This document shows, piece by piece, positions 8,629 to 50,949 of a stretch of DNA of 64,000 nt. Below the pieces are notes generated by a model that ran no database searches, was not told the DNA's origin, and saw only the letters and a program-made list of their open reading frames with translations. Each line of letters begins with the position of its first letter. Within the stretch, counting starts at the first letter, position 1. Origin of the DNA: Rhizophagus irregularis (lineage: Eukaryota; Glomeromycota; Glomeromycetes; Glomerales; Glomeraceae). The position numbers and the translations under genes are program-made. The stretch is from positions 3,286,001 to 3,350,000 of the forward strand of contig NC_089439.1 in the NCBI RefSeq assembly GCF_026210795.1, written 5' to 3'.

Positions 8629-8756
8629 TACTTTTAAAAAAAAAAGAAAAAAAAAAAGAAAATGTTAGTAGTTAGTACGCAAAATTTACTGTATATAATA
8701 AAATGGTTACGTAAATCTTCAGGTGATACGGTACTAAGATAAATAAATCAAAAAGC

Positions 8757-10425
8757 TCCATGAAAGGAGTATCAAAAATCTCCACGAAGAGAGTATCAAA
8801 ATCTCCAACAAAGGGAGTATCAAAAATCTCCACGAAGGGAGTATCGAAAATCTCCACGAAGGGAGTATCAAAAAATCTCCACGAAGGGAGTATCAAAATC
8901 TCGGAAGTATCAAAAATCTCCACGAAGGGAGTATCGAAAATCTCCACGAAGGGAGTATCAAAAATCTCCACGAAGGGAGTATCGAAAATCTCCACGAAGA
9001 GAGTATTAAAAAATCTCCACGAAGGGAGTATCAAAAAATCTCCACAAAGGGAGTATCAAAATCTCGGAAGTATCAAAAATCTCCACGAAGGGAGTATCGA
9101 AAATCTCCACGAAGGGAGTATCAAAAAATCTCCACGAAGGGAGTATCAAAAAATCTCCACGAAGGGAGTATCAAAAAATCTCCACGAAGGGAGTATCAAA
9201 ATCTCGGAAGTATCAAAAATCTCCACGAAGGGAGTATCGAAAATCTCCACGAAGGGAGTATCAAAAAATCTCCACGAAGGGAGTATCAAAAAATCTCCAC
9301 GAAGGGAGTATCAAAATCTCGGAAGTATCAAAAATCTCCACGAAGGGAGTATCGAAAATCTCCACGAAGGGAGTATCAAAAAATCTCCAACGAAGGGAGT
9401 ATCAAAAAATCTCCAACGAAGGGAGTATCAAAAAATCTCCACGAAGGGAGTATCAAAATCTCGGAAGTATCAAAAAATCTCCATGAAGGGAGTATCAAAA
9501 ATCTCCACGAAGGGAGTATCAAAAAATCTCCAACGAAGGGAGTATCAAAAAATCTCCAACGAAGGGAGTATCAAAATCTCGGAAGTATCAAAAATCTCCA
9601 CGAAGGGAGTATCGAAAATCTCCACGAAGGGAGTATCAAAAAATCTCCAACGAAGGGAGTATCAAAAAATCTCCAACGAAGGGAGTATCAAAAAATCTCC
9701 AACGAAGGGAGTATCAAAATCTCGGAAGTATCAAAAAATCTCCACGAAGGGAGTATCGAAAATCTCCACGAAGGGAGTATCAAAAAATCTCCAACGAAGG
9801 GAGTATCAAAAAATCTCCAACGAAGGGAGTATCAAAATCTCGGAAGTATCAAAAATCTCCACGAAGGGAGTATCGAAAATCTCCACGAAGGGAGTATTAA
9901 AAATCTCCAACGAAGGGAGTATCAAAAAATCTCCACGAAGGGAGTATCAAAAAATCTCCACGAAGGGAGTATCAAAATCTCCAACGAAGGGAGAATCAAA
10001 AAATCTCCACGAAGGGAGTATCAAAATCTCCAACGAAGGGAGAATCAAAAAATCTCCACGAAGGGAGTATCAAAATCTCGGAAGTATCAAAAATCTCCAC
10101 GAAGGGAGTATCAAAAAATCTCCACGAAGGGAGTATCAAAAAATCTCCATGAAGGGAGTATCGAAAATCTCCACGAAGGGAGTATCAAAAATCTCCAACG
10201 AAGGGAGTATCAAAAAATCTCCAACAAAGGGAGTATCAAAAAATCTCCACGAAGGGAGTATCGAAAATCTCCACGAAGGGAGTATCAAAAATCTCCAACG
10301 AAGGGAGTATCAAAAAATCTCCAACAAAGGGAGTATCAAAAACCTCCAACGAAGGGAGTATCAAAACCTCCAAAAAGGGAGTATCAAAAATCTTCAACGA
10401 AGGGATTATCAAAAATCTCCCTTTT
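8757..10425. repeat. 24-26 bp minisatellite, about 1.67 kb, with higher-order repeats
   Basis: The basic unit is GGGAGTATCAAAAATCTC followed by CACGAA (24 bp). Variants are TCGAAAAT (24 bp), six-A (25 bp) and six-A plus CCAACGAA (26 bp), giving roughly 65-70 units. A truncated unit containing CTCGGAAGTATC recurs nine times, with TCGGAAG starting at 8901, 9064, 9204, 9319, 9461, 9579, 9722, 9840 and 10078. The spacings alternate near 142 and 118 bp in the middle, so there is a superunit of about 260 bp. Forward frames stay open across most of the array, but unit lengths change by one or two bases, so the frame is not conserved and this is not a credible protein gene. The last few units (after about 10330) are degenerate, as is usual at array edges. 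Confidence 0.95.
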
Positions 10426-15475: not shown

Positions 15476-16819
15476 ATGTCTCAAAAACCTTTAATAGTTG
15501 TAAGCGGAGCAACTGGTGAATGTTTATTTATATCGAACGTAAATTAAACATTACGATCAATTAACAATTAAAGGTGCTCAAGGTGGATCCGTTGCTAACT
15601 CACTTCTGGCTACGGGAAATTACAGAGTTCGAGCATTAACTCGTAACCCGGATTCAGATAAAGCGAAAGCATTGGCATCTAAGGGAGCTGAAGTATTTAA
15701 ATGTAATTTATCTATCAGGGAGGATGTTAAGAATGCTTTGAGTGGTGCTGATATTGCTTGGATTGTTACTAATTTCTGGGATCCAGTAAATAATAATTAA
15801 AATATTATATGATATATATTATAATGATAAATTTTCTAATAATACTTATGTTTAATTTAGTCAATTTATGGTAAAGATGTTAATGAAGAAGAAAGGCAAG
15901 GTAAAATGATTTCCGATATCGCTAAGGAGGAAGGTGTTAATTGGTTAATCTATAGGTGAATAAATAACTTTCTAAATTCTTTGTTTCTGTGTAAAAATTT
16001 GAAAGTTTTATATCTTAACAAAAAATGTTTCACAGTTCTATTGTTGATTCTACTGTTGAATGTTATCCAATTTACTGGTAAAAGTCATGTAGAACAATAC
16101 ATTAGAACATCAGGAATTCCGAATATGACATTTGCCTATCTTGGCTTTTACAACCAAAATATTGGAGCTAATACGATTTTGATTCCGAATGAAAATGATG
16201 AAGTTGAACTTGCTATTTCTTATCTTGAAGAAAATGATCAGCTTCCCATGATCGATGTCGATGGCGATACTGGAGTACGTGTTTATTAATTGAACTTAAT
16301 ATACTTCAACTTTAGTTAAAATTATATTTTTTTCTAGCCTATTGTTGCAAAAATTATTGAGGAAGGCCCAGATAAATGGAACGGTAAAAGAGTTCCTGTT
16401 GCTGCTGAGTTCCTTACCATGAAACAAATCGTTGATATATTGACCAAAGGTAAATAACTAAACATAAATACTGTAAAGAAAATAGACAGGCTCAATTATT
16501 TGTTTTTTTAATATAGTTACCGGAAAAAAACATAAATTAAAAACTATGGGCGATGATGATATCGCAAAATTAGATGCATATGTAAACAATGAACAAATGA
16601 AGCAAATGGTAAAAAAAACAATGAAAAATTTTTTCGTTTTCTTTTTTTTTAAAAATAAAATATTAATTTTTTTTTGTTTTATAGTTTAAATTTATTAAAG
16701 AATTTGGAGTTTTTGGAAAGAGTGGTGAACTTCGAGATATTTCTATTACCAAGAAACTTCATCCAAACATTAAAACCTTTGAGCAATATGCACTTGAAAC
16801 TTTCGGAAAAGCAAAATAA
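15476..16819 (+). pseudogene. NmrA-like gene copy 1, frameshifted
   Basis: Seven exons line up with the intact copies: 15476-15515, 15574-15785, 15861-15955, 16036-16274, 16338-16449, 16517-16608 and 16685-16819. All splice sites are GT..AG. The glycine-rich dinucleotide motif VSGATGAQGG spans the first junction. Exon 4 is 239 bases against 256-262 in the other copies: about 20 bases after the ...DSTVE codons (near 16062) are missing. The summed coding length (925) is not a multiple of three, so the frame is lost from there. Everything else is well kept, so the loss is recent, or a sequencing or assembly error, or this copy uses an unseen splice form. Confidence 0.8.
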
Positions 16820-17983
16820 AAATGTTAAATATATTATAAATAGAACTTCCTTTTATTGTTAGTTTATATTCTTTTACCGGAAATAAAATTATTAGTACCT
16901 GATTACACCAATAAGCATTTATAAACAGATAATTATCATATGTATAATAAATATATGTACGGTAAAGAATTTCAAGAAAGATTAAAGTTGGTAACTTTCT
17001 TCCAGTTAATAATTGGTTACGAAATAAAGATTAATAAAATAAATTCAAGTGTTTGAGAAAAAAGAATTCTATTCTTAAATTACTGATTGTGCTTTCAATA
17101 AATGTTAAATATTTTACAGAAAAAAAAAATGTCGATTGACAATTCCGTCATAATAAATAGCCATTGTTCGTTTAATAAGACGACGAAAAGGCGTGTATTC
17201 GCTAAGGGAATTTTAATGTACGTGTACCTTTTTTGTGAAAAACGGGATCGTTCTGACTGATCACAAATTTGTACCCTTAGATAAATTGGTTGCTGATGCG
17301 GTCAGGCGGGTCAGCGGTCTGGAAACTATTATTTAATCAACTAGTTTTCAATGCTGGCCAGGTCTTTTAAGTCATATATTAACTACTATTGGAGGATTTG
17401 TCAGCCGAACAGTCAATTTATTAGAGAACTGGGGTTTCCATTAACAGTTAATATATTCAGATGGATTACGCAAATCCGCATAATTATTAAGACGTTCCAC
17501 AAAATTAATCGCTTATTTTGACAATGGTTTCGGATAAAGTCTAAATGAACAAATAATAATTTACACATAAAAATTTCGAGACTCTAGAATTTCGGCATCT
17601 GTATTTATATTTTTTCTTTCGCTTGGTTTTTTTTGTTTTTCTATTTAAAAAATGTGTAAAAAGCTTCAGAATTACTAGTCTGTAAATAAAAATGATTATT
17701 AATTTCTACTCTACTGCAAATCTACCATAGAACGGATAAACTTTTATTTGCATAATCGCGTCGATCAGGGGATAATACAGTATATTTGATTACAAATTAA
17801 CAATATGGTAAAGGCGTAAAACTTATCATCAAATCTTCCACATGACTAGACAAATACAGGTAGCTTATTTTCATAGAGAATCTAATCTATTTGTATACAA
17901 TAAATTGATTAATAATAATAATAACAAAAAATTATAAATAGGGGGCGAAATATCATCTACTTAAAAAATAATCCTTTTCAAGA
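16820..17983. other. spacer between NmrA-like copies 1 and 2
   Basis: No gene recognised. A 28-codon open stretch near 17256-17335 (KFVPLDKLVADAVRR) looks coding but has no context. It is among the longest spacers in the array. Confidence 0.5.
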
Positions 17984-19374
17984 ATGGTTCAAAAACCTTT
18001 AGTCGTCGTTAGCGGAGCTACTGGTAGATGACTTTATGAGTAATAAATCATGTGGGCTCAATGTTTCGATCGACTAACGTTAATCTTTAAATTTAGGTGC
18101 TCAAGGTGGATCTATTGCTAATTCACTCCTCGATACGGGACGTTACAAAGTTCGGGCATTAACTCGTAACACGAATTCAGATAAAGCGAAAGCATTGGCA
18201 TCTAAAGGAGCCGAGGTAGTTAAATTTGATATAACCGTTAAAGAAGATATTAAGAGTGCTTTAAGCGGTGCTGATATCGCTTGGTTGGTTACTAGTTTCT
18301 TTGATAAAGTAATAAGAATATGTTTAATAAATATGTGTTTATATTATTTTCGTATCAAGTTAATAATTTATAATGGAACATTTAAAAATTAGTCATTACT
18401 TGATACGGGTCTTGGTGAAGAAGAAAGACTAGGTAAATTATTTGCTGATATCGCTAAAGAAGAAGGAGTAAACTGGTTAATTTACAGGTAAACATAATAC
18501 TTTATGATCTTTTATTTCTTATTAAATTCGAAAAGCAATATATTTAAGTATTATGATAGTTCTCTCCCCGATAGTACTGCTGATTCTGGTGGAAAATATC
18601 CTGACGTTATCCAATTTGCTGGTAAAAATCACGTTGAACAATACATTAGAACATTAGGAATCAATTCAACATTTGTCTATCTTGGCTTCTATAATCAAAA
18701 CTTGGGAACTCATATACCTTTGATTCCGAACGAGAATGGCGAAATTGAAATTGCTCTCCCTTATTTGGAAGAAAATGATCAGCTTCCCGTGATCGATGTC
18801 GACAGCGATACTGGTGTATGTGTTTATTTATTTATTGATCTTAAATTTTTTTTAAAAAAGAATCGATCTTAAAATTTTTTTTTTTTCCTAGCCTATCATT
18901 GCGAAAATTATTGAGGAAGGACTAACTAAATGGAACGGTAAAAAAGTTCCTGTTGCTGCCGAATATGTTACTATGAAACACATTGCCGACGTATTGACCA
19001 AAGGTAAATCATATAAATAATTTATAAATATTATTTAAAGAGAATTAGCAAGCTCAAATTATTTTCTAATCTAGTTACGGGAAAAACATATAAGATAAAA
19101 ACTCTGGATGACGAAGGTGTCGCCGAAAAAATCCCAAATAATAACAATGAACAAATAAAACAAATGGTAAACAAAAAAAAAAATGGTGTGAATTCTTCCT
19201 CGTTCTTTATTAATAAAATATTCATTCTTTTTTGTCTTGTAGTTCAAATTTGAAAAAGAGTTTGGGCTTTTTGGAATGGACAATGAAGTTAAAGATATTT
19301 CTATTGCCAAGAAACTACTTCCAAACATTAAAACCTTCGAGCAATATGCACTTGAAACTTACGGAAAAGCATAA
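17984..19374 (+). CDS. NmrA-like NAD(P)-binding protein, copy 2 (intact)
   Basis: Exons 17984-18023, 18097-18308, 18393-18487, 18560-18815, 18892-19003, 19075-19166 and 19243-19374 sum to 939 bases, 312 residues. The protein starts MVQKPLVVVSGATG, then AQGGSIANSLLDTG, giving the G-x-x-G-x-x-G dinucleotide-binding loop and Rossmann fold. RALTRNTNSDKAKAL and SGADIAWLVTSF follow the pattern of NmrA/HSCARG proteins. In that family these are catalytically silent short-chain-dehydrogenase relatives that sense NAD(P)H/NADP and act through protein partners in the cytosol or nucleus. No classical YxxxK dehydrogenase centre was noticed. Its second residue (Val) and exon 3 wording (SLLDTGLGEEERLG) set it apart from copies 3-5. 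It is the only member before the decayed copy with an open frame. Confidence 0.9.
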
Positions 19375-20440
19375 AATAAAAAGTGAGACATTTTGCATGT
19401 CAATGTGCAATAATTTGAAAATTTTATATATTTGAGAAAAGAAACATATCATTTATTGTTAATTGTTTAAATTGTCACAATAACTTTTCATATTCAATAA
19501 ATTTTAATATTTTAATAAAGCTTTATTATTACATAGTTTATGAACAATATTATCGCTGAGATTTTACAGTAATTTCAGCTTTTAAATTACTTTAAAAATG
19601 TAAAAAATTATATCTTAAATTTTAAATAATTTTATTATTTTTAAACTTGAAGAGTACATAAGATGTACTAAGTAAACCGTAAATTCTATCTGTACTGAAT
19701 GTATGAATTTCCAGGAGGATGTTTGATGAAGCCCATTTAATCGAGTCAAAGGATTGTCCGAAAGACTTAGTGATTTCGCAAGAAAACTGTTTTGATCGGT
19801 TTCTGAGAAGAATTATTATTGTGTTTATTAACTTTGAATTTTTCTGCGTGATAAGGTTTCTTTTGTTTGTAATGATATCGTCGGAATTATTTTTACCGTT
19901 ACGGCACGTGCCGGCCGTAATAAATGCCAAAATCGTAAACGCCGTAAGGCCGTAATTTTACAGCCAAATATCTAAAAGATAAAAAAATGAAGTTAATATC
20001 GTTTCTTAACGGTTACTTTCAAGAAAAAGCCCCTCCCGCAAGAACTACTTCTAAAAAAGAAAAATTTTGTGTGTAATAAACCGGTATTAAATACTTACCC
20101 TTTTTTTTTAAAAAAAAAATTCCAGCATATATCTTTACATCTTTACTCACGGATACAGAATTATTTACTGCCGTAATCAGTGAATTCTACAGGCTATTTC
20201 CAATTCTTGTTTCTTCATTTAAAAAGGCCGGAGGAGCGAAATAATTACAAGATAAATTTACGTTACCAGATACGGGGTGATCATATTTATGTAGTACATA
20301 CTGTTTCCAAGGCTCGGACTAAAAAGTCAAATTTAATAAACTTATCGTTTCCAATATCAATCGTAAATTTGTAATTAAGAAGGAGTAACCTATGATTAAA
20401 TCTAACTGAAGGTCTATGTTGTAATATGATGTCGTACAGT
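19375..20440. other. spacer with a GC-richer ACGGC patch
   Basis: Near 19890-19960 there is a run of TTACGG/ACGGC words unlike the surroundings, perhaps a transposon end. Frames on both strands at 19622-19955 overlap each other and show no family match. A 64-codon plus-strand frame (20180-20374) has a fairly protein-like middle (YQIRGDHIYVVHTVSKARTK) but is unassigned. Confidence 0.4.
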
Positions 20441-20815
20441 AGGTTGCGTACTGGACAAGGGATAATAGTATGCGTTCGTTTGAGTGGAGTGAGGTGTTGT
20501 TATCGTTTTAATGTTGTAATTGAATTTGTAACCCGAACGTCAATTGATTGACTGGTTTGAAACTGCGGGTAGGAAAATGGCGGCGATCCTTGAGATAGTG
20601 TTGATTTAACATCGTTCCAAGTGAATAGGTATGAACTGTCTATCGATGTGACTTGGTCCATGAAATATTATATTTTTATTTTTAAACTTCTGTAGTTTTT
20701 GTTGTAAGCAGTAGGCAGTTAAGTCGTGGATGGAATTGAATGTGTTGTACCTTCTGACACTGTACTATTTCGTTTAGTCAATAAAAATAAATAAAATAAA
20801 ATAAATATGATAAAA
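20440..20815 (+). mobile_element. probable LINE 3' end with A-rich tail
   Basis: The stretch is GC-richer than its surroundings and ends in a (TAAAA/TAAA)n-type tail at about 20782-20808, like the retroposon at 10503-10749. No target-site duplication could be matched, so the left border is approximate. No reading frame was identified. Confidence 0.4.
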
Positions 20816-21260
20816 ATAAAGATAAATAATTCAAATTAAAATTCAAAGGAAGATTCAAAGATAAATCTAGGAATAGTGCAATAATCTATACGATAAAGTA
20901 AAATATTCGATGATGATAGTCCGTCACACTCTAGGAGCCAAGTAAACTAAATAATAAATACCTAACTAAAGAACTTGACACCGACCCAAAGGTCCAACAA
21001 TAGCAATTACTAGCATAAGGAAAAACAACAACGAAGGAAGGGAAATATACCTAAAAAAATTCTTCAAGAAAAAGTAAATATCAGAAAGAAAAAAAATTAT
21101 CTGATACTAGTCAAAGTGATATTAACTTCTTTGTATTTACTTTTTTTTTTTTAAATAACATTAAAAAAGAGCTTTTTATTATACTTTTCTTCAATATGCT
21201 AACTTACTGACAAATTTTATTAACCTTAACCTATAAAAATCTTTCAGAAATACTACTACT
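20816..21260. other. intergenic, nothing recognised
   Basis: Purine-rich on the plus strand (20930-21090), otherwise AT-rich. No similarity recognised. Confidence 0.4.
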
Positions 21261-21655
21261 TATAACAACTATTTCATTGTCAAATTTTAAAACTTTCGTC
21301 AGAAAATTTATTCTTGTTATTGAAATCATCTTTACCTTTATGATCGCCTAGTTTCTTAGGATTCTGAGGTGGATTCTTCGTATTGCTCTTAGCTTCTTAT
21401 AACTATTTCATTGTCAAATTTTAAAACTTTCGTCAGAATTTTATTCTTGCCACCGAAACCATTTTTACCTTTATGATCGCCTAGTTTCTTAGGATTCTGA
21501 GTTGGATCCTTCGTATGGCTCTTAGCTTCTTATAACAACTATTTCATTGTCAAATTTTAAAACTTTCGTCAGAATTTTATTCTTGTCACCGAAACTACCT
21601 TTACGATCGTCTAGTTCTTAGGATTCTGAGGTGGATTCTCTCTTAGCAGAACCTT
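21261..21655 (-). repeat. 135 bp tandem repeat, three copies
   Basis: Copies start at about 21261, 21397 and 21531. CTATTTCATTG recurs at 21269, 21403 and 21539, so periods are 134 and 136. The minus strand reads a Lys-rich segment (NPPQNPKKLGDHKGKDD, then NKFSDESFKI and a stop) in each unit. Just upstream on that strand an ATG near 21697 opens MVKSSKRSSKNDSKEGSAKR. Since the periods are not multiples of three, a single long protein is unlikely. It may be a decayed gene whose exon was triplicated. Confidence 0.7.
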
Positions 21656-21999
21656 CTTTGCTATCATTTTTCGATGACCGTTTCGAAGACTTTACCATAT
21701 TCTTCTTCCTTAATGATTTTAGAGAAACGACACGCGTCCATCAAATTTCTTATTTTCTATCATAGAATAAAGCTATTATTCGTTTATTCCGATCGGTAAA
21801 TAAAATCATGTGATTTAAGGTTTAAATTAATGCGTCAATCAAATCACCTCTATGGAAAGTTTCTAGATACACTTTTCGTGACACTTCAAACATGCATCAT
21901 AATTAAACAAATGCAGATCCGATAAGAAAATTTTAAGATCAAGCGGAGCTACAGTATATGAGATACGTTTCGAACGATAACGTTAGCCCGAATTAGGAT

Positions 22000-22690
22000 C
22001 CGTTACCAACTGGACGTTACAGTCATTAATCAATCAGTTAACGAGTTAATGCTCCCTTATTAACGACATCAGCAGTTATTTTACTTAACCTTCTTTCTTC
22101 ATTGGGTTCTTTATCAATAATAACCAAATAAATTTGCATAAATTATATATTGAAGTTAAAATATAAATTTTTACTTAGAAATAATGCAGTCAAGGCAATA
22201 TCATCACCGCTTAAAGATTCATAATATTTTCCTTGACAGATAAACCACATTTAAATCATTCAGTTCCACGTTACGAGCTGATCTGCAGATCTGATGATGA
22301 ATTCGAAAATTCCTACATCTAAATAAAACCTTACACAGAAGCTCCCTCTCCGATTCTACTACTAAATCATATGGAATAACTTGATATCGAATTATCTGGC
22401 GAAAATTGTATAGAACAATTACTTTATAACATTAGAAAATAACATAGTTTTGAACTCAAGTACCTATTATTCATAAATGATCAGATTCTTATTATGATTG
22501 ATGTTGACAATAATACTAGTATACGTATACCTTATGGAATTACTATCTCAAAACGGCGAATCATTCAAACAAATAATAAAAAAATACTGTAAATGTAATA
22601 AATACCTTCTCGTTCTTTTATTAATAAAAAATTCATTCTTTTTTTAATTAAGCTAAAGAATCTGAACATTTGAGAAAGGATAAATAAAGT
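22000..22690 (+). pseudogene. heavily decayed NmrA-like copy
   Basis: Landmarks of the array genes appear in order. The exon 2 start lies near 22000-22025 (GGATCCGTT.CCAACT then GGACGTTACAG). The exon 4 start SSLSDSTTKSYG is at about 22340-22376, followed by a shifted copy of the GKNHVEQYIR segment to about 22432. NDQILIMIDVDNNTS is near 22470-22520. The exon 6 end and intron 6 lie near 22556-22640, including the shared CTCGTTCTTTTATTAATAAA. Large deletions and many stops are present. It lies between copies 2 and 3 and shows that the array once had at least six members. Confidence 0.7.
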
Positions 22691-24240
22691 TTAAATATTT
22701 CAATTGTTAAAAACTTGCGAACAATATGCATGAAGAAGTCTTTAGATAGCAGAATATCAATTCCTTCGAATCTTCTCAACCTGTGAGTTTAAAATGACTG
22801 ATATCCCTAGTCTTTTTCGAAATAAGAGATGAATATATAAAAAAAGATTTTTTTTGTGTATACTGTATGCGTTTTATTAAAGATAGATTATCTCTCTACA
22901 CTTTCATGAAAAGTAAAATTCAGTCAAAGAGAATTTGTGAGGAAATTTGGAAGATAAATGATGTCGGTGAAATGTTTTTATTAACGGGAAGATCTGAATA
23001 ATGAATATATAAAATAATACATAAAAATATATTGTAGATGCCATAAAAATATACTGCAGATGAGATGATTTTTACAAAATAAAAATCAATCAATCAATCA
23101 CTTAAATCATTTAAAGCTATTTTTGGTACAATTCTATTATTAAACGTGGTAGTGAGAAGATAATAAGTATGGCTCACTATTTTTATTTTCACCCCAAAGA
23201 ATGGGATTGATTAATATAATATTTAAAGATCTATAAAATTATTTTTAGTATTATTATTATTACATTCGGACGGCTAGAATAATTATTACTCCTATTACGT
23301 AATGTAAAGGCTCACATAATTTATACTGTATTATTATTTATTTATACGCCTATAAGAGTAATTGAATAGGACAGTACATGCTAATAAGTAAAAGGTATTC
23401 TTTCTTGTACATCAATTGCTAACTGAAGAGAACTAGATATAAATGAATTACTTTAATATTTGAACTTTTTATATTTGTTAATCTTTAAAAAAATTAGAAT
23501 TGAATCGCACTTTTTGTAGTTTCAGAATGTCATGTTGTACGATTTAAATTAGTGTATCAGTCCCTTACCTTTCCAATCAATAAAATGAACTTCCCTGCAT
23601 CAATTATTACTACAAGATGACAATTTAAGGCAGCAATTGACAATAGATGGAGCTTGCGTAATATTGATTCTCATTGTTTTTCAAGATCTAAATTTCTAGA
23701 GCAAATGTTCGATTATTCCTTCCAGGAATTTCTTCTTTCTAAATTCTCAATTACACGTACAGGCTTACGAATCCAATTTTTTGTGTCATATGTTACTTTT
23801 CTTTATAATAAATAATTGCGTTAATATAATTGAACTTAAATTTTATTGTACCTTGTTATTACGTTTGCATGATTACGTTCCTTTACTGTAATATAAAGTT
23901 AATATAAAGTTAATATACGTAATTCGATCAATATAATCATGTTAACCATATATAATACTGTTACCTGTATGCTTTTATATAATGAATCTCTTACAATATG
24001 TCACACATTTGTTTGTTTAACTCTCGGTAAAAATTTACCGAGCGACCTTTCAAAGAAAGCTGACGTTTGCAATTCAATTAGTAAAAAAAATGATGGAAGA
24101 AAGAAATTTGCGTAATCAAAAAAGTTCTAGATTTTTTTTTTTGAAAAAAAAATAACGATCTTAATCTTTACTTAATTTATCCACCTAATAAATAAACAAT
24201 CACATTATAATCGAACAAGTGAAGATTACAATATGTATAT
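22691..24240. other. long spacer in the NmrA-like array, nothing recognised
   Basis: AT-rich. A two-unit tandem repeat of about 22 bases (CATAAAAATATA.TG.AGATG) lies at 23019-23064 and a short (AATC)n run at about 23085-23101. No coding similarity was found on either strand. Confidence 0.5.
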
Positions 24241-24740
24241 ATATTTTTTTGTACACGCATAGAAAATTCTTGAGGGAAAAATGATTGAGAAAATAAGGCC
24301 AAGAAAATTGATTAATAATGTAGAAAAAAAATGAACACGTATAAGAATTTATATATATGGAAAATTTTTTGTACACAAATTACGGAATTAGGGAAATTGA
24401 GCGACAAAATTGAAAATTTAATATAGTCATATGGGAACTATGGGAACGAAAAAAATTTATTAACGCGCACATATATGTACATATTTTTGTACACAAAGAT
24501 ACAAAATGCCGGGCGAAAAATGATTAATAATTAAAAATAAAAAATAAAAAACGGAATTTTTGAAAGAAACGTATATATATGTACATATTTTTGTACACAA
24601 ATTATAGAATTAGGACAAAAAAATATTGATTGATAAAATCAAATCAGGTGAAAATTATTTTGATTAATAATAATAATTGAGCATGGGAACGAAAACTTAA
24701 AAGTTTTTGTGCATTTTTGTAACAAATATGGATATATTTC
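24240..24740. repeat. degenerate ~120 bp tandem repeat upstream of an NmrA-like gene
   Basis: The word TTTTTGTACAC(A) recurs at 24251, 24371, 24489 and 24593, with a decayed form (TTTTTGTAACAAAT) near 24712. It is embedded in similar neighbours (an AT alternation before, and a GAAAAATGATTGA or AATTAGG-like tail after). Spacings are 120, 118, 104 and about 120. The array ends about 150 bases before the start codon of NmrA-like copy 3, so it makes up most of that gene's upstream region. Confidence 0.6.
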
Positions 24741-24886
24741 GGGAGAAACCATTGAGAAAATAAGATTTGGAAAATTAATAATACAAGAAATGGCGTAAAA
24801 TTTTAATTTACGTATCCTATATATATAGGTCGAAATTTTTTGAAAAATGGCAACAACATAACCACTGAAAACAACTTTTTTTAATA

Positions 24887-26251
24887 ATGTCTCAAAAACC
24901 TTTAATCGTCGTAGCCGGAGCTACTGGTAAATACTCTAAATGTGTATTACGTGAACTCACTTTTATACTCACGTTAAACTCATTACAGGTTCTCAAGGCG
25001 GATCCGTTGCCAATGCACTTCTCGATACAGGGCTTTACAGAGTTCGAGCATTAACTCGTAAAACAGATTCGGATAAAGCGAAAGCTTTAGCATCCAAAGG
25101 AGCTGAAGTATTCAAATGCGATTTATCTGTTAAAGAAAATGTTAAAAATGCCTTGAGCGGCGCTGATATTGCTTGGATTGTTACTAATTTCTTGGATCCA
25201 GTAAGTGATATAATATATAGAAATATATATATGTATATATAATGATAAGAGATTTAATAAATTATGTAAACTTCAGTCGATTTCCGGTGAAAATCCTCAA
25301 GAAGAAGAAAGAATTGGTAAAATGATCGCCGATGTCGCTAAAGAAGTAGGACTTAACTGGTTATTCTACAGGTAAATATATTATGCATATATCGAAATTT
25401 GAAATATTTTATATTAAATAAATATATTATATAGTTCCCTTCCTGATACTACTACTGGATCTGGTGGGAAATACTCTAATATTATCGAATTTGACGGTAA
25501 AAATCGCGTAGAACAATACATTAGGAAATTAGGGATTCCAAACGTGACATTTATCTATGTCTGTTTCTACAACCAAAATTTTGCGACTGAAATTGTACCT
25601 TTTATTCCGAATGATAAGGGTGAAATTGAAATTGTTATTCCTTATGTGGAAGAAAATGATAGCATTCTTTTGGTCGATGTTGTAAATGATGCTGGTGTAC
25701 GTGTTTATTAATCTTAATTATTATTATTTTTAAAAAGACAGTTCAATGTTATAAAGATAATTGTTTTTTTTCTTTTAGCCAATTGTTGCGAAAGTTATTG
25801 AGGAAGGACCTGCTAAATGGAACGGTAGAAAAGTTCCCGTTGCCGCCGAAAATGTTACTTTTAAACATATTACTGATGTATTGACCAAAGGTAAATAATA
25901 TAATTATATTTATATATATATTTTAAACAATAATAGTAACTCTTTATTATTAATCTAGTTACTGGAAAAACTCATAAATTGAGAACCATAAACGACGAAG
26001 ATATCGCCAGAGATTTTCCATTCCTTGACATCCCATCATTCAAAGAAATGGTAAATAAACAGATAAATATACGTTAAATTCTTTCTAATTCTTTTATTAA
26101 TAAAATATTTAATTTATAGTTCAAATGGTTTAAAGAATACTATTCCTTTGGACCAGACGAAGAACTTAAAGATATCTCGGTTGCTAAGAAACTACATCCA
26201 AAAATTAAAACATTCGAGCAATATGCAGTTGAAACTTTTGGTAAAGCTTAA
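24887..26251 (+). CDS. NmrA-like NAD(P)-binding protein, copy 3 (intact)
   Basis: Exons 24887-24926, 24989-25200, 25277-25371, 25435-25696, 25779-25890, 25959-26050 and 26120-26251 sum to 945 bases, 314 residues. It starts MSQKPLIVVAGATG then SQGGSVANALLDTG, with Ala and Ser where the other copies have Ser and Ala around the dinucleotide loop. The C-terminal half keeps AKWNGRKVPVAAENV and the array-typical ending KIKTFEQYAVETFGKA. Exon 4 is the longest of the family (262 bases), by whole codons. Its nearest upstream sequence is the 120 bp tandem repeat. Cytosolic or nuclear NAD(P)-sensing is inferred from the family, as for copy 2. Confidence 0.9.
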
Positions 26252-27419
26252 ATTAACAAATGTTGTATCATCAATTATATTATCAATTCTATTGTATTAT
26301 CAATTATTTTGTTATTTAGCCATTTTTATTATCTATTGTATTGTTTATTGTATTATTTGAAATTTAAATAAATTTTTCCAAAGTCGGCCAATAAATTTGC
26401 GAGTGTAAACACAACATGTGACATGTCCATACAATTTCTCAATTCGAAAGATAGGGGCAATCAAACAGTCAAATTTTAATGTATTTTCCGGCTAAATATA
26501 TAATTCACTTGTTAATATATAACTTAATTTCTCAAAAGTTACGTGGCATTTTATTACTAAATAAAGCAAGTATTTTTTATTTAAGAAAGAAAATTTATAT
26601 TCTAAATGACCAATGACATGCTTGGCGAGTTGGCTAGTTTGGTGGCTAAAACAGTTCTTGGCCGTGTCAAAATGACAATCAAATTTGGCTATCAAATTTC
26701 GGCTATTGGGCCTTGGCCGATCAATGGCTTTCTTGGCCACCAGTATATGATAAGTCATAATAATGATTTAAGTTAGCTTGTAATCTGGTTAAAATTTAAA
26801 TTAGAAAATTTCAATCAACTCTTTCATTTATTATTGGTAATATAATCTGTTCTTTTATATATACTGTATATATAACGACCATATTTTTTTATTATATATT
26901 ACAAATGTAATGAATAAATTTATTTGTTCAAATATATGTACAATTAAATTATAGCCAAAAATGTATATTATTTGGTAATTTAGTATTAATTACATTTATT
27001 TAAAATTTTTAGGATATACGTTGCATAAGTTTACTTAAGTCGTAAAAAAAATGTTATCGCGTCAGTTATTTTTTTGAAAAAAATTATTATTATTATTATT
27101 TTCTAGATGATTTTTAAGATTTCGTTATGATACTTTTTTATGATATTTTTTTTTTATATTTTGTCGTATGTATCGATCGTAACCGATGATGATAAGCCCA
27201 CCAGACATTTTAGTAATGTTTCCGGACAATGAAATCCGGCCACCAGAAATTTTTGCCATATATATTCTATTCAACCTTCCTAACCTGAGAAATGATCTGC
27301 GAAAATGACATTACTTAAAGTAAGATCTTACCATAATTAATTCATTTATGATTACTAATATTATTAATTAAAGAATTTAAATACGACATATAACGAAAAT
27401 AATTTATTCTAAAAAAACA
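26252..27419. other. spacer between NmrA-like copies 3 and 4
   Basis: Near 26610-26745 TTGGC(C/T) words recur about nine times on the plus strand, a local composition unlike the rest. An 88-codon minus-strand frame over it (26492-26758) is a by-product of this. Related (T)GGCCACC/CCGGCCACC words recur near 27235. No gene was seen. Confidence 0.4.
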
Positions 27420-28793
27420 ATGTCCCAAAAACCTTTAATTATTGTAAGCGGAGCTACTGGTCAGTGTTCACGACGTTGATTGTATATTACGTAAAATTAG
27501 TGTTTAACCTCAACCCTTCCGAATCAGGTGCTCAAGGTGGATCCGTTGTTAATTCACTTCTTGCTACAGGACTTTACAAAATTCGAGCATTAACTCGTAA
27601 CCCAAATTCCGACAAAGCAAAAGCGTTGGAATCCAAAGGAGCTGAAGTATTTAAATGCGATTTATCTGTTAGGGAAGAAGTTGAGAATGCCTTAAGCGGT
27701 GCTGATATTGCTTGGATTGTTACTAATTTCTTGGATCCTGTAAGTATAATATGTACGTATACATTTAGTATTATTTGGCAATATTAAAATAATGTTATGA
27801 AAATTTAGTCAATCATTGGTAAAGATCCTGGTGAAGAAGAAAGACAAGGTAAAATGATTGCAGATATCGCTAAAGAAAAAGGACTCAACTGGTTAATATA
27901 CAGGTAAATATACTGTATAATTACTACACGTACCTTCGTCAAATTATCCTAAATATAATAATTCTACTAGTTCTCTTCCTGATTCTACTACTGAATCTGG
28001 TGGAAAATATCCCGATGTCACCCATTTTACCGGTAAAAATCATGTAGAACAATACATCAGGAAATTAGGAATTCCAAACGTGACTTTTGCGTATCTCAGT
28101 TTCTATAGCCAAAATATTGGAACTTTTTTCTTACCCCTTATTTCGAATGAAAATGGTGAGATTGATCTTGTTATTCCTTATTTCGAAGAAAATGATCAGC
28201 TTCTTTTGATCGATGTCAGGGATACTGGTGTGCGTATTATTATTTATTTATTTATATTATTTATTTATTGTTAAAAAAGAAGGATCAATCTTAAAAAATT
28301 TTTTTTTCTAGCCAATTATTGCAAAAATAATTGAAGAAGGGCCTACTAAATGGAATGGTAAAAAAGTTCCTATTGCTAGTGAGAATGTTACTATTAAACA
28401 GATTACTGATGTATTGACCAAAGGTAAAACACAAATATTTTTATTAATATTTTAAATTTTTAAAAATTTATAATGATAATTATTTTTCTTAATCTAGTTA
28501 CCGGAAAAACTCATAAAGTAAGAACTCTTAACGATGAAGATATCGCCAAAGATTTTCCAACTTTAAACAACAAATCACTCAAACAAATGGTAAATAAACA
28601 AATAAATATAATGAATTCTTTCTCATTCTTTTTAATAATAAAATATTTGATTTTGTAGTTTAAATATGAAAAAGAATTTGGAGCTATAGGAAAAGATAAT
28701 GAACTTCAAGATATTACTATTGCTAAGAAGCTACATCCAAACATTAAAACCTTCGAGCAATATATACTTGAAACTTATGGAAAATCAGATTAA
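27420..28793 (+). CDS. NmrA-like NAD(P)-binding protein, copy 4 (intact)
   Basis: Exons 27420-27459, 27528-27739, 27809-27903, 27971-28229, 28312-28423, 28498-28589 and 28659-28793 sum to 945 bases, 314 residues. The dinucleotide loop reads SGATGAQGGSVVNSLLATG, followed by RALTRNPNSDKAKALESKG. Exon 4 reads SSLPDSTTESGGKYPDVTHF and is complete exactly where copy 1 has its deletion. It ends ...YILETYGKSD, one codon longer than copies 2, 3 and 5. Intron 4 opens with GTGCGT rather than the GTACGT of copies 1, 3 and 5. Copies 4 and 5 share VVNSLLATG and NPNSDKAKAL at the nucleotide level, suggesting recent common origin. Confidence 0.9.
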
Positions 28794-29675
28794 ATGTAAA
28801 ATTTGCTGCGCTATTTTGCAAATCAACGAATAAACTGACTTTTTTTTTTTGTTATAATGATGCTTAAGAAAAAATTGGAAAAAAATTTTATAATTAATAA
28901 TCAATAATATCATCCATTACAAATACTCTTTTTATACGTAATGATGATGAAAGGTCTGGCGTTTATTATACAAAAAATAAGCATTTCTTATCTGAGATAC
29001 TATTGCGTCATATGTTACACCAATCATATTATTGAAAAAATAATGATAATTATTGAAATGGATAATGATAATTATTGAAATGATAATGGCATAGCTAACA
29101 AACAAATAATAAAGTGCTCTAATTATTATTTCGGCCCAAAAAAGATTTTTCGGCAAATAAACCTTAAAAAAAAGATCAATAGACAATTCAATCGGGTTCA
29201 TTTTTAATTGGTTATAATTCATCAAATTTTGCCATAATTCATCAAATTTGCACAATTCGTGCATTTTATGCTGTCATGCTAACTGTCAATGGAAAAATTT
29301 TTTACTATATATTATATCTAGATCTTTTATTTATCTCGAAAATATAACGACAAGTTTAAAGAATTGCGTGCTTATAATGATGACTAATAATTTTAGGATC
29401 TACATTTATTCTTATTATTCTAAAATAAGTTATTTAATTTTGTAAGTATAAATACTAAAAAAGTTTAAATATTTGGTTAATTTGGTTAATCCTTTTCTAA
29501 TATTTTTCGATTAATAATAATAATAACAAGTTCAGTCTAATAATGTTTAGAAGAATTAAATTGATTAATAATATAAGAAAAATTACTTATAAATATAGGA
29601 CGGAAGAAATTGATTAAAAAGTGCAAAATAAATTAAAAGTAAAAATAAAAGTACAAAATATTCTATTTCTTAACA
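28794..29675. other. spacer between NmrA-like copies 4 and 5
   Basis: AT-rich. A doubled segment near 29035-29085 (TAATGATAATTATTGAAATG repeated) is the only local structure. A 110-codon minus-strand frame here (28932-29264) has no family match and low-complexity composition. Confidence 0.5.
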
Positions 29676-31088
29676 ATGTCTCAAAAACCTTTAGTCGTTG
29701 TTAGCGGAGCTACTGGTAAATCGTCAATCGTAAATAAATCATATGGTTTAACGTTTTCAATCGCTAACTTGCTAACCCTTCCAAAAATTAGGTGCTCAGG
29801 GTGGATCCGTTGTTAATTCACTTCTTGCTACAGGACATTACAAAATTCGAGCATTAACTCGTAACCCAAATTCCGATAAAGCAAAAGCATTAAAAGCTAA
29901 AGGAGTTGATGAAATAGTTAAATGTGATTTCTCTTCTAACAAGGAGGAAATTATTAACGCTTTAAGCGGTGCTGATATTGCTTGGATTGTTACTAATTTC
30001 TGGGATCCAGTAAGTCATTTAATTTGTTATTAGTCATTATCATAAGAAAATTAATTTTAATAATTTTACGTAAATTTAGACAATCGTTGGTGCAAAACCT
30101 GATGAAGAAGAAAGACAAGGTAAATTGATTGCCGATGCCGCTAAAGAAGTAGGACTTAACTGGTTAATCTACAGGTAAATATAATGTATAAATTCTACAT
30201 GCACTTTTTATTTCAATATCGAAATTTACACATAAATATTATTACATACATAGTTCTCTTCCTGACACTATCATTGAATCTGACGGAAAATATCCCGATA
30301 TTGTTCACTTTCATGGTAAAAATCGAGTGGAACGATACATCAGATCATTAGGAATTCCAAATACAACATTTGTCTATCTCAGTTACTACTACCAAAACAT
30401 AGGAGTTTTCTCACCTATTATCGAGAAGGATAATGAAGCTGTACTTGTTTTTCCTTATATAACAGAGAATGATACAATTCCTATGATCGATGTCGATAGT
30501 GACACAGGTGTACGTGTTTATTTATAATATTTATAATGAGTTGAATGAGTTGTTTAAAAAAGATTCTTTGGGGTTAAAAAAATATTTTTTTTTCTCCTAG
30601 CCGATTGTTGCAAAAATTATTGAGGAAGGGCCAGCTAAATGGAACGGTAAAAAAGTTCCTGTTGCCGCCGATAATGTTTCTTTAAAATATGTGGTTGATG
30701 TATTAACCAAAGGTAAATACAAATTATTATATAATACTGTAAATTTATTTAAAGGAAAATTGGCAAACTCAATTATTTTTATTCTTAATTTAGTTACGGG
30801 AAAAACTCATAAATTAAGAACTTTGACCGATGATGATGTAAAAGAATTTCCAGGCATTGACAATGATGAATTAAAACAAATGGTAAATAAAATAATAAAT
30901 GGTATAATAAAATTTCTTTCTCATTCTTTTATTAATAGAACATTTTCTTTTATTAGCATAAATGGTTTTTAGAATACGGACTATTTGGAAAAGATGATGA
31001 AGTTAAAGATATTTCTATAGCTAAGAAATTACACCCAAAAATTAGATCCTTTGAGCAATATGCACTTGAAAAATACTCAAAGGCTTAG
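29676..31088 (+). CDS. NmrA-like NAD(P)-binding protein, copy 5 (intact)
   Basis: Exons 29676-29715, 29792-30009, 30080-30174, 30254-30509, 30601-30712, 30794-30882 and 30957-31088 sum to 942 bases, 313 residues. Exon 2 is two codons longer than in the other copies (an insertion around KAKGVDEIVKCDFSSNKEE) and exon 6 one codon shorter, both in frame, as expected under selection for an open frame. The Rossmann loop SGATGAQGGSVVNSLLATG is kept. Exon 7 starts HKWFLEYG instead of the usual FKxxKE, and the end is ARYS-like (ALEKYSKA). It is the last member of the array; next downstream is 1.1 kb of empty sequence, then a BTB gene on the other strand. Confidence 0.9.
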
Positions 31089-32202
31089 GGTAGAAATCAT
31101 TATATATTGTTACTATCTCTTGTATTGTATATCTCTTGTATTATTCTTTCTTAAGAAATCTAAATAAAATCAATGATCGATATATTATAATATCTCTCAT
31201 CTCGCTTGAATTTCACCTAAGTGTTTACAACTTTTATTTATCGATGACTATGAGCGTTTTTTTTTATATTGTACTAGTCCCCATCAATAATTCAAAATTT
31301 GTACGTGCCAGAGTGCTGTTAAACAATAAAAACATTTAGCACATTATTCAATATAAACGAATCCTTACAATAATACAATCAATAATTAAATAAAGGATAA
31401 AGAAATTACCAATCATTATGAAAATTCCTTCGTTCTAAAAATGCTATAATAATTTAGGAAAAATGAATCTTTATTAATGATTTACACCTTGATCAAAATT
31501 CTTAACCTTGAATAAATCACAAAAAGAATTATTTTAACCGAACGCACCTCATGAACAAATTCTTTAATAGTAATGCTATAAAAATTAAAGAAGATTTTAA
31601 CGCTAAATACTGTAGAATTCCCGAAATATGCAGTAAATTCCAGATTCAATCAAATTAATCCGATTGGAATTGGTGCTATAAGAAGATATTACTGTGAAAA
31701 AGTTCTCTAAATTATTTATGAAAGCACAATTAAAGTTCGCTCATTCAAGATTCTAAGTGAACATATAATAAAAAATAATTTGATGAGTATAATCAGTTGA
31801 GTTTGTACAAAATGATAATTAAAATAATTAATTAAATTAGTCTAAATTATAAAAATTATAAAATGACTCATCAAAACTTTAAAGTATTTTCACGAATTTA
31901 AGTAAACAACAAATACCTAAAAATTCTAGTAAATATAAATTTAAAGATAAATATTTTTGTATTGTACAGTGGAAAAAGATTTTAAGAATTGAAACTAATT
32001 AAGTGATACTTACGATTATATATTTATAACGTGTGCTGAACAACTGAACGTGAATATCATTTATTATTGGTTTGGTGGAACAGTTTTATGTTGAAATATT
32101 TTAATTTCATGATTAGGTGTTAAATCATAAATCATAATAATTTTATTTAAAAAAGTTCATTACATTTAAAATTGTTAAATACATGCATATTACTGCATAT
32201 TA
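31089..32202. other. intergenic, nothing recognised
   Basis: AT-rich, lying between two genes that converge (NmrA-like copy 5 on + and a BTB gene on -), so it should hold both 3' ends. No RNA gene or repeat was recognised. Confidence 0.5.
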
Positions 32203-34092
32203 CTATAATATAATGATCTCGCCAAAACTATCATCGCTTTTATCATCACTACCTATATTTAATATACTACCATCTCTCTCATTAGAAACATTCGATTCAT
32301 TGGCAGCACTTTTCATTTCACCTTTCACTTCGCCTCCACTAACACTTTCACTTTCTTCTAAAATTTCTTCTTCAAAATTTTCTTTACTTTTCCCATTGGA
32401 ATAAATTACTTGAAATACTTCATAGTCTTCCATAACAAAAGTACCAGCATAGGTAATAGGTAAGATTCGTTTTCCGTAATATTGTTGAGTACAACTACCA
32501 CTAAACCACCAAAGATCATGACCAAAACCAAGATTATTATATTTGCAAGACATATCACGAATAGCGTATTGAGAATTTTGTACTCTACTTAGAATGTATT
32601 CGTTAGAGTCACATATAAGTGGATTTGTGAATGAGAATATAAATGAATCATTCGTTTGTTTATATGTATCCGATGAACTCCAATCTAAAGGATTGTATCC
32701 TCCAATCACAATAGAAGTATCACCACTTGTAATAGTAGTATTATTAATGATATTACTAGTACTAAATCTCCTAACCTTAAAGTTATCACTTTTATTATTT
32801 TTCAAATTTTCAGAAACATCTCCAATAGTATGTCTTTTATTAATAATATGATTACTATTATCATTTGATTCATCTCCATCATCATGATTATTTTCAAGTA
32901 TTTTAATCAATACTAGAGTAGGACCCTTGTTATCACATAACTTATGAAATGTTTTTACGTCCATACCATCTTTGCTCCCTCTCAATAATAATTTAAACTC
33001 AACTACATCCTTCTTCTTTATCTCGCTCTTAGAACCTTTATTCATCCACGATCTCAATATACCAGCATGCCTTGCTGAAATGTATAAAGAATCAATCTTA
33101 TATTTTGGAACACGTAATGATAAATTAAAATTACTATCACATGATGGTAATTCTGAATTTGGTATCATGTGAAATTTAATTAATTGAGATTTAAGTTGTT
33201 TGGGTAAAATCTTCTTGAATGGCCATACAAATTCATATAATTGATCGCCAGGTATTTGAAAAAATCTGATAAAAGGAAGAAAATCTTTTAATATATTTTC
33301 CAGTTCAATAAAATCTTTTTTCGTCCATGAAGAAGCATCAGAAATATCAGTACAGGAATTAAGTAAAGGGTATTGATTAATCGCCCAATGTAATAAATAA
33401 TTCCATATATCAATTTCATCTAAACATAAATTATCTCGTTTAATTATCGTTAACAGTGAAAGTTTTTCCAATCTTGTAAAAGATGGAGTATTGAATAATA
33501 ATGAAGGAATCTCGCAAATTAATTCACTACAATGATTGGCTAGTAATGAAAATGTTGTGGAGTGAGTGACAATGTGAAATACGTGAATAATATTCTCGTG
33601 TAACCATGATTGTTCGTTGGCTATGATGTGTAGTTGAATATATTTCACTAAATCTAAAAGAGACAATTCGCCGGCCGCTAATAACAATGGTACATACATA
33701 TCTTGCATATCTGGTTCCTTTAAATTACAAGTCCCGGTATAAATATATCTTTTTTTTTTTGGATAGAGATGATTTAATACAAATCTTTAGATGAGGCGTA
33801 TACTGTACTACTATGCATACGATACTTACTTGAGTATTAATCGAAATACATCTGGATAAATGTTTGGTTTTTTTAATAAAAAGAATTCACCATCTTTTTT
33901 TACTTCATCATTCTTATTAGAAAGTACGTTTTGAAAATATTTGGATCTTGAACGAAGTATTACTGAATGTGCCTTGAAAGTTTCTGTTTCGATACCTTCA
34001 TCTTCTCCACCGACCGTAATACAAACATTATAATCATCAGATTCATAATATAATTTACAAATATCTCTTAATAATCCTTTCGTTAAATCCAT
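32203..34092 (-). CDS. BTB-BACK-TLDc protein with inserted linker and acidic tail
   Basis: Exon 1 is 34092-33830 and exon 2 is 33748-32203, joined by a GTAAGT..AAG intron that splits a Lys codon: 602 residues, about 150 longer than the copy at 3060. BTB (about 1-105; SVILRSRSKYFQNVLSN) and BACK (about 110-260; EIDIWNYLLHWA) come first, then a linker. TLDc starts at LLLRGSKDGMD (about 341) but is split by a 60-residue Asn/Asp/Ser-rich insert (about 373-432) before IGGYNPLDWSSSD. The insert carries RRFSTS (from 414), a possible basophilic-kinase site. After VMEDYEVFQVIYS comes a 65-residue acidic, Ser-rich tail. The intron and domain order match 3060-4498, to which it is closer in sequence than to the 37-46 kb copies. 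The role as a cullin-3 adaptor is inferred from the family. Confidence 0.9.
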
Positions 34093-37392: not shown

Positions 37393-39187
37393 CTATGGGG
37401 AATATAAAATTATACTAAAAATTTCATATTCTTCGGCACTAGAGTATCCAATATCATGTATTTTTTTACTATATGAATTATGGGTAAAATATATTCCTTT
37501 TTCAGCACTAAAATAATCGATAAGTTGTAGGTCTCTAAAACTTATCCCACGACTAGATTGAAATATCGCAGTATCATATTTTGAAACTCTGGATAAAATT
37601 ATTTCTTTATCTAAACTAAAAATAAAACTATCTGAGGTATTTTCATAATTTCCATGTTTATTAATATCCCAGTTAATAGGATTATATCCTCCAATAATGG
37701 TACTTTCACCTTTCAATTTTATAATTGTAATTGTGGGACCTTTGTTATCACACATTTTGTGAAATGACGCACTCGTAAATCCATCTCGACTTCCACGAAT
37801 GAGTAATTTAAATCCATAAACCTTCCATTTATTTGATATCTCGGTATCATTATTTCCTTGAATCCAAGAAGAAATCAATGCTGCTTGTTCACTATTGATC
37901 AGTTTAGATTCAATTGGAGAATTAGAAAGATGATTAACACTATAAACATTGAATGAATTAGAAAATTTGTTAGAACTCTGCGAACTATACGAATTAGGAG
38001 AACTAGGAGAATTAGGGGAACTAGGAGAATTAAGAGTATTGGGTGAATTGGGTGAATTGGGTGAATTGAGGGTATTAGATGTAATAGAGGAATTAAAAGT
38101 ATTAGGTGACTTAGGAGAATTGGGAGGGGGAGGATTGGGAAGATTGATCATATTAGGTTTCTTTACAACATTTGTAATAATCGGAGAATTCGAGGCACTT
38201 AAATCTTTTTTCCTCGGTGAAAGGTTATTAAATATTGGTTGCCAATTTGGTACTAAATGATATTTTGAAAGATCTTGATATAATTCATTCGAAAGTACAC
38301 CACAGTAAGGCATAATTTTATAACAAAAATCTTCGGATGAAATTTCATAAAACCTAATATGAGGTATAAAATCTTCGATAATTCTCTTTAAAATATTAAA
38401 TTCATTCGTTGTCCAATCAGAAATCTCTCCTAACAACTTGGTATTTTGGGCCTTACCCCAACAAATAATATGATCCCATAATTCACTTTCTTTCACACAT
38501 ATATCTCCATTTTTATAAAGGGACAATAATGCATCTTTATCTACAGATGTAAAGTCAGTAGCATTAAATAAAATTTCTGGTTGTTCAACAACGATTGCTG
38601 TCCAATAATCTTGTAATTTGGTAAATTCAGAGTATGTAAAACTGACTTGTTGAGTTAACACAAAATTCTGAAAGATCCAATCTTGATGATGCTTTATAAG
38701 ATAATCTTGAATATAATCATATAATTCTTTGAGTTTAAAATTTTCGCAAACAACTAAAAGGTTCAAAATATCTAAAGCCTCTTTACGATCAAGATCGATG
38801 GTGCCACCATAAATATATCTGCAAGTTAAAAAAAAAAGAAAAATCAAACAATCAAACAATCATTGCGTCATTGCATATAAGAGCAAAACATTTAATTTAT
38901 TTCAAGATTTTTTTATTTTTTTTTTTGCATTACCTAATTACAATATTGAAAACATTAACAGAGATATCAGGTAAATCCAAAATATATATATTATTTTCTT
39001 TCTTTGTAAATCCATTTAAAAGAGAATTCCTAAAATATGACGACCTCGCTTCAAGAATAATTGAGTGTACACAAAATTCTTTCTTATTATTTTCATCATC
39101 AACATTAATTATAAAATCATAATTCTTTTTATTCTCTAAAAGTTTTGTCAGGTCTCGCGATAGGTAAGGTAAAAATTGGGTGGACAT
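37393..39187 (-). CDS. BTB-BACK-TLDc protein with Asn-Ser-Pro linker
   Basis: Exon 1 is 39187-38934 and exon 2 is 38818-37393; an Arg codon is split (AG|A) and the protein has 559 residues. BTB covers about 1-105 (MSTQFLPYLSRDLTKLLENK, SIILEARSSYF, then RYIYGGTIDLD over the junction). BACK covers about 107-256 (LYDYIQDYLIKHHQDWIFQN, SELWDHIICWGKAQ, FIPHIRFYEIS). A proline/asparagine/serine linker follows (about 312-381, repeats of NSPNSPN and SSPNSP), then TLDc (about 389-559; LLIRGSRDG, CDNKGPTITIIKLKG, IIGGYNPINW, EEYEIFSII). The linker is absent from its closest relative at 44552-46071, so it grew by short repeat expansion. The upstream run of T/A is typical of this subfamily. Confidence 0.92.
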
Positions 39188-50518: not shown

Positions 50519-50949
50519 CTCCGGTAGTTCAGTTAGACAACATTATTCGTATTTCAAACTTCCAACTGATTTAGAAAGAAAATAACAAGAATGGAGTAAC
50601 ACACGGGGTTTGATTGTTCATTATAGATGTTACTCAGTGTACAAATTTTTACTGTGCTTACTGTGCTTATGAGTTTGTGGCCAAATTTACGATTTACAAT
50701 CATAATCTAAAAATGGACTACCGTTGTGAGACATAGTATTGAATTGTTGCGTTCCAATGGTCATTAATATTAATTTCGAATCAACAAAAAAATCAATTAA
50801 GGCTCTATATAACTTTATTAATTATCTAAATAAAAGATTTTATTTCAAGAAAGGCAGGTAAACTGCTGAAACAGATACATAATTACAGAGTTATAAGAGT
50901 AATAAGACTCGTTCAATTAGTAATACACATTTATAACTTTCGAAACTAG
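50519..50949. other. intergenic, promoter side of the Sel1 gene
   Basis: No gene. TATCTAAATAAAAGA at 50823-50837 recurs at 51241-51255; see the rejected list. Confidence 0.4.

Follow-up and report, generated by a model that had tools for sequence, protein, structure and literature searches.

A tandem array of NmrA/HSCARG-type genes in Rhizophagus irregularis, probably shaped by gene birth and death

Introduction

The systems closest to the locus treated here are, on the side of the proteins, human HSCARG (NMRAL1) and the fungal NmrA nitrogen repressors, to which may be added Fv_Tan1 of Fusarium verticillioides, a fungal protein termed both NmrA- and HSCARG-like (PMC12028961). On the side of the genome, they are the expanded gene families of arbuscular mycorrhizal fungi, which occasionally lie in tandem arrays (PMC8647823). 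Here we describe a head-to-tail array of NmrA-like genes at 15476-31088 on the plus strand of a 64-kilobase (kb) stretch of the Rhizophagus irregularis genome (C11:3286001-3350000, on contig 11). This whole stretch is called the window; coordinates refer to it unless a contig is named, and the genome searched comprises 146.7 megabases on 32 contigs.

The array holds an intron-bearing gene in six copies, four of which are open. The frame of a fifth was broken at a late point for a copy of that age, and the sixth is an old, rearranged relic. A block with at least the 5' part of the third gene copy together with the fourth and fifth is also present in pieces on contig 14, where the copies have decayed. 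The locus is very probably a tandem family of atypical short-chain dehydrogenases/reductases (SDRs) of the NmrA/HSCARG type which grows and shrinks by birth and death. A preliminary description of this DNA, made from its letters, stated that no such array had been seen described; this holds for the array itself, as no description of it was found in open-licence papers on Rhizophagus, arbuscular mycorrhizal fungi or Glomeromycota in connection with NmrA or PF05368, and neither PMC10234402 nor PMC8647823 mentions 'NmrA' in its main text. It does not hold for the kind of arrangement, since tandem duplicate arrays in these genomes are known in general (PMC8647823).

Results

The array consists of five gene copies (c1-c5) and the relic. 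Copy c1 (15476-16819), with a frame that is broken in the assembly, has seven exons of 40, 212, 95, 239, 112, 92 and 135 nucleotides (nt). The four open copies are c2 (17984-19374; 312 amino acids (aa); exons of 40, 212, 95, 256, 112, 92 and 132 nt), c3 (24887-26251; 314 aa; 40, 212, 95, 262, 112, 92 and 132 nt), c4 (27420-28793; 314 aa; 40, 212, 95, 259, 112, 92 and 135 nt; intron 1 donor GTCAGT) and c5 (29676-31088; 313 aa; 40, 218, 95, 256, 112, 89 and 132 nt). All 30 introns of c1-c5 have GT-AG ends, the translations of c2-c5 are free of internal stops, and the exon lengths of these open copies differ by multiples of three throughout. The gene models and the relic matches thus agree with the six copies on one strand, the whole-codon length changes and the exon lengths (40, 212-218, 95, 256-262, 112, 89-92 and 132-135 nt, with exon 4 of c1 apart at 239 nt) that had been read from the letters before. 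Protein identity to c2 is 66% for c3, 72% for c4 and 65% for c5, and four copies share a 229-nt stretch with 80-84% identity, as compared without shuffled controls.

The relic (about 21941-22730) was recovered as piecewise exon matches. On the plus strand lie exon 4 (22343-22520), the tail of exon 6 (22537-22574) and exon 7 (22642-22730), which retain traces of the exon 6-intron 6-exon 7 order only; exon 5 is nearly lost (a weak 47-nt match, E 0.005) and of exon 1 the tail alone gives a match, a weak one of 12 nt (E 0.027). As the tail of exon 2 (22267-22187) and exon 3 (22121-22038) match on the minus strand, with best E values of 3.8e-15 and 5.8e-10, the relic contains an internal inversion at 22038-22267. 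The preliminary description was right in counting four open copies, one frameshifted and one heavily decayed, at different stages of decay side by side; it had overlooked this inversion. Since exon matches to the relic alone reach 3.8e-15, the similarity within the array is not due to chance. Between c2 and the relic, 21267-21639 holds about 2.8 tandem copies of a unit of 133 base pairs (bp).

Where else does this gene occur? With c4 as query, the whole genome yields 59 exon-level matches at E up to 0.01, of which the close ones cluster at four sites: the array itself, two tandem copies on contig 21, decayed copies on contig 14 (481816-483957) and a scrap on contig 1. In all, the family has about eleven complete, decayed or fragmentary copies (six in the array, two each on contigs 21 and 14, and the scrap). 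Both members of the contig 21 pair, C21a and C21b (about 1195346-1196733 and 1199761-1201184), are open and have the same seven-exon layout, with an exon 1 that is longer by 3 and 6 nt. The scrap (C1:908434-908526; L018:3934-4026) is a 93-bp piece of c4, comprising exon 6 and the start of intron 6, at 97.8% identity; no further match to the window was found in the surrounding 8 kb at E 1e-10, and it is perhaps recent filler DNA. More distant matches with 32-37% identity, on contigs 1, 2, 3, 17 and 24, look like another subfamily of the NmrA fold.

On contig 14, the stretch 24271-32267 of the window (plus strand) has a piecewise counterpart at C14:480638-485225 on the opposite strand, with the upstream region and exon 1 of c3, fragments of c4, c5 from intron 1 onwards, and the 3' flank through to where the next open frame ends. 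Its parts are C14:480638-483142, which matches window 29757-32267 at 75.6% over 2680 aligned columns, including more than 1 kb of 3' flank (65.6% for the flank alone); C14:483493-484068, which is c4 in pieces at 81-86%; and C14:484570-485225, the c3 upstream region and exon 1 at 67%. A second stretch, 20393-21073 (plus strand), located between c2 and the relic, has a match at C14:489675-490440 that is turned round with respect to the NmrA copies of that contig, its only other match found being 65 bp on contig 8. By these alignments, an array stretch of about 12 kb is found again in pieces on contig 14, with losses and an inversion in one or the other of the two regions. One of the copies there, C14a, has no exon 1 and carries three frame-breaking length changes relative to c4 (7, 1 and 2 nt). 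Because the contig 14 copies are decayed, copying would have proceeded from contig 11 to contig 14.

What kind of protein is encoded? The Pfam family NmrA (PF05368) is matched by all four open array copies at E up to 0.001, with a best value of 1.2e-63, which bears out the family call made earlier; c2 scores 215.9 bits against a curated cut-off of 27 and covers positions 2-298 of the 298-position profile. A search of NCBIfam gave weak matches only, far below the cut-offs. In a profile search of solved structures, human HSCARG/NMRAL1 ranks first (9.8e-40 and 1.1e-39), with fungal NmrA behind (1.1e-22). Over the six intact proteins (c2-c5, C21a and C21b; the count omits c1, C14a and the relic), 138 of 314 codon columns are invariant, among them those of GATGxQGG and R37. 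The former belongs to the N-terminal dinucleotide-binding motif GxxGxxG, present as G11-A-T-G14-x-Q-G17-G18 in these six proteins and in c1; the latter lies in gap-free alignment with HSCARG, where we take Arg37 to be an NADPH contact. Atypical SDRs of the NmrA/HSCARG type are not known to have a conserved Y-x-x-x-K active site, and no such motif is common to the six intact proteins: c3 and c4 are without any, and in the remaining four it stands at column 227, 271 or 305 (two contig 21 hits at column 310 lie past stops and were not counted). The array proteins are thus likely of NmrA/HSCARG type and would act in NADP(H)-dependent sensing or reduction, binding NADP(H) through the retained Rossmann motif.

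They would be redox-responsive regulators of the HSCARG type or reductases of small molecules. That the copies are not NADP(H) sensors but metabolic enzymes of the NmrA/isoflavone-reductase/pinoresinol-reductase kind, the array widening substrate range or dosage, is a real possibility, if not the one we favour. The same profile matches CtdP (8.3e-26), an entry named 'Monooxygenase' (1.4e-23), pinoresinol-lariciresinol reductase (1.5e-6) and YtfG (2.1e-6), and K138 of a GKN motif, near the position of a lysine that is presumably catalytic in plant reductases, is invariant in the six intact proteins. However, the match to HSCARG is far stronger, at 1e-39, and the missing common Y-x-x-x-K also speaks against reductases. 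For regulators of the HSCARG type, the family itself would suggest a role in redox signalling.

The ratio of non-synonymous to synonymous divergence (dN/dS) argues that the frames are maintained. Pairwise NG86 estimates among c1-c5 lie between 0.26 and 0.47, at synonymous divergences (dS) of 0.45-0.66, and the bootstrap intervals stay below 0.67 in ten of ten pairs; as the values are not near 1 for all copies, the view of a dead array fails. In a codon model on an eight-copy tree, a single ratio is estimated at 0.399, and fixing it at 1 costs 125 in twice the log-likelihood difference (2dlnL). On the terminal branches, dN/dS is 0.41 for c1, 0.29 for c2, 0.41 for c3, 0.38 for c4, 0.71 for c5, 0.37 for C21a, 0.29 for C21b and 1.01 for C14a, and a value of 1 is rejected on six of the eight (c1, c2, c3, c4, C21a and C21b; 2dlnL 9.4 to 24.7, uncorrected for multiple testing), C14a not rejecting it (2dlnL 0.00). 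Three of the four open array copies, c2, c3 and c4, are clearly under purifying selection, and the earlier statement that selection keeps the frames is borne out.

The damage to c1 is a single 20-nt deletion in exon 4, with the junction at about 16059/16060, downstream of which the frame is lost; elsewhere this exon has 3 nt more than that of c2. Given its low dN/dS, either the frame was lost recently relative to the age of the copy, or a splice variant still serves it. The second reading, in which a downstream AG within exon 4, in place of the usual acceptor at 16035/16036, skips the damaged exon start in frame so that c1 still codes for protein, appears improbable to us. Two inner AG sites, with exon starts at 16085 or 16106, do keep the frame open and yield 291 and 284 aa, and the c1 branch rejects a dN/dS of 1 (2dlnL 10.0); but the chance of an in-frame AG is about one in three, the shortened product would lose the conserved YSSLPD...GKY segment, and a recent deletion explains the low dN/dS equally well. 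Least likely of all, and barely credible, is that the whole array is a graveyard of drifting copies with open frames as mere leftovers: the frameshifted copy, the relic, the dead contig 14 copy (1.01) and c5 (0.71) fit it, but it is contradicted by the overall dN/dS of 0.40 (2dlnL 125), by the rejection of 1 for each of c2, c3 and c4, and by open copies that differ by whole codons only despite synonymous divergences of 0.45-0.63 (c2-c5).

How did the copies arise? Seven copies (c1-c5, C21a and C21b) keep all six introns and C14a keeps introns 2-6; exon layout and splice sites are shared by copies on three contigs. As introns are kept, duplication probably took place at the level of DNA and not by retro-copying. 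This supports one part of the earlier claim that gene-sized genomic segments were duplicated; the gene-sized unit is not supported, as homology passes the gene ends in the two younger pairs, c5-C14a and C21a-C21b, and the flanks in the array are largely decayed. We compared introns and 300-bp flanks in all 28 pairs of the eight copies and set them against 10 and 50 single-base shuffles. Intron identity exceeds the shuffles by 0.113 in c5-C14a and 0.106 in C21a-C21b, and by at most about 0.085 in the other 26 pairs, that of c1-C21b falling below its control. Flank scores far above the shuffles are confined to the same two pairs (193 downstream in c5-C14a; 115 and 166 in C21a-C21b). A faint excess over every shuffle is seen upstream in c1-c2 (47), c1-c5 (47), c2-c3 (36), c2-c5 (48), c2-C21a (39) and c3-C21b (36), and downstream in c2-C21b (42), c3-c5 (44), c3-C14a (51), C21a-C14a (48) and C21b-C14a (36); upstream comparisons with C14a carry little meaning, its exon 1 being missing. 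In the contig 21 pair, similarity reaches beyond the gene by about 100 bp on its upstream side and by 300-400 bp on its downstream side, and a separate similar piece lies still farther upstream. Since gapped blastn passes through the introns at about 70% over whole genes, the introns are not wholly lost; in the old pairs, however, they are near the shuffled controls and the flanks at most faintly similar, so that the size of the unit is not readable from the array.

The trees pair c1 with c2 (87-89% support in the DNA and codon trees, 98% in the protein tree), as is expected from tandem duplication, and c3 with c4 in the DNA and codon trees (65 and 59%). With a bacterial root, taken as the first 16 of the 68 out of 80 loci that gave a usable protein, C21a and C21b branch outside the copies of contigs 11 and 14, at a weak 41%. 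Constraining the array to monophyly adds no contrast, as the best tree already satisfies it. Copying may have occurred by unequal exchange or replication slippage between neighbours, and the block may have been copied from contig 11 to contig 14. Within the contig 21 pair, 93 identical bases around intron 2 (L009:4663-4755 and 9083-9175), in genes whose exons 2-7 differ by 13%, suggest gene conversion (p at most 0.001 over ten pairs of the five copies with introns, in a test chosen after the identical intron 2 had been seen by eye).

Two other origins were considered and found no support. Nothing suggests recent transfer from bacteria, judging from the 84 bacterial relatives confirmed, the best 80 of which were kept: they are about 26-33% identical in matches over most of the query and up to 41% in partial ones. 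These relatives were found by a pattern search with two short peptides, and the eukaryotic side of the comparison is this genome only. Copying by a mobile element was sought by comparing four intergenic stretches with the genome, in which no element boundary common to the copies was found; beside themselves, they match 34 times for c1-c2 (all short), twice for relic-c3 (one being the contig 14 block), twice for c3-c4 and not at all for c4-c5. In the c1-c2 gap, about 17246-17319 and 17608-17695 recur over many contigs, together accounting for 34 short matches, and are likely short dispersed repeats.

The remainder of the window contains members of other families. TLDc and/or BACK domains occur in five open frames, at 3332-4495 on the plus strand and at 32206-33786, 37396-38859, 39640-40314 and 44555-45760 on the minus strand; three of these frames (37396, 39640 and 44555) are closely related (65-69%), as is one more at C11:3357014-3358186 (63-64%). 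The TLDc family is very large: for one such protein of the window, scoring 88 of 1851 candidates gave at least 150 matches. On the minus strand at 48206-50542, an open frame of 778 aa consists of Sel1 repeats, with 15 matched stretches. The minisatellite at 8747-10420, with about 70 units of 24-25 bp, is open for more than 560 codons in two plus-strand frames at once, and is perhaps no gene, or a low-complexity one.

Discussion

What can be concluded about this locus? Several points weigh against its reading as a tandem family with maintained members. Copy c5, taken alone, does not reject a dN/dS of 1 (2dlnL 0.84). The codon model is a purpose-written script with a single fixed tree and at most 40 optimiser steps, and c1 and C14a were fitted to the frame of c4 with gapped codons masked. 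Support for the deep branches is uneven (41-98%), and the protein tree does not share the pairing of c3 and c4. In the array, runs tests on sets of 21 and 28 pairs leave no gene-conversion tract after correction (lowest raw p 0.0285 for c3-C21a and 0.008 for c4-C14a), which leaves ongoing exchange unsupported by this test. Finally, live genes, splicing, binding and enzyme activity are all predictions from the sequence.

A tandem NmrA/HSCARG-type family under birth and death nevertheless remains the reading we prefer, and the array looks like an ordinary locus of this kind. Its value lies in the clean local record that it offers of how genes are born and die in an arbuscular mycorrhizal fungus, with open, freshly broken and long-dead copies and a block shared with another chromosome, all comparable with each other. 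The copies might divide dosage, expression or ligand range among them. In a bolder version, which we regard as unlikely, the four open copies of contig 11 and the two of contig 21 would be diverged redox sensors, each suited to its own stage or partner in the mycorrhizal life cycle and preserved by selection as neighbouring copies die; if true, an NADPH-sensing family would have expanded specifically in this symbiont. The array would gain greater weight only if separate redox roles in symbiosis were to be found for its maintained copies.

Among known systems, HSCARG/NMRAL1 (PDB 2wm3 and 2exx) is the closest to the array proteins, aligning over query positions 1-305 with its GxTGAQGGSV motif and R37 free of gaps. 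The relationship is distant, however, and crosses kingdoms: NADPH sensing with an NADPH-dependent change of form, partners and relocalisation are features of HSCARG, with which the array has been compared by sequence alone. The fungal NmrA nitrogen repressors (PDB 1xgk and 1k6i), which bind the GATA factor AreA, belong to the same fold family, but match positions 2-238 of the query only, with 84 bits against 140 for HSCARG; Fv_Tan1 shares the fold family by description. As a genomic arrangement, the array resembles the tandem arrays of kinase, BTB/POZ, Sel1-like and other families in the same genome (PMC8647823): there, too, duplicates lie in arrays, yet those families are far larger than the NmrA-like family with its about eleven copies.

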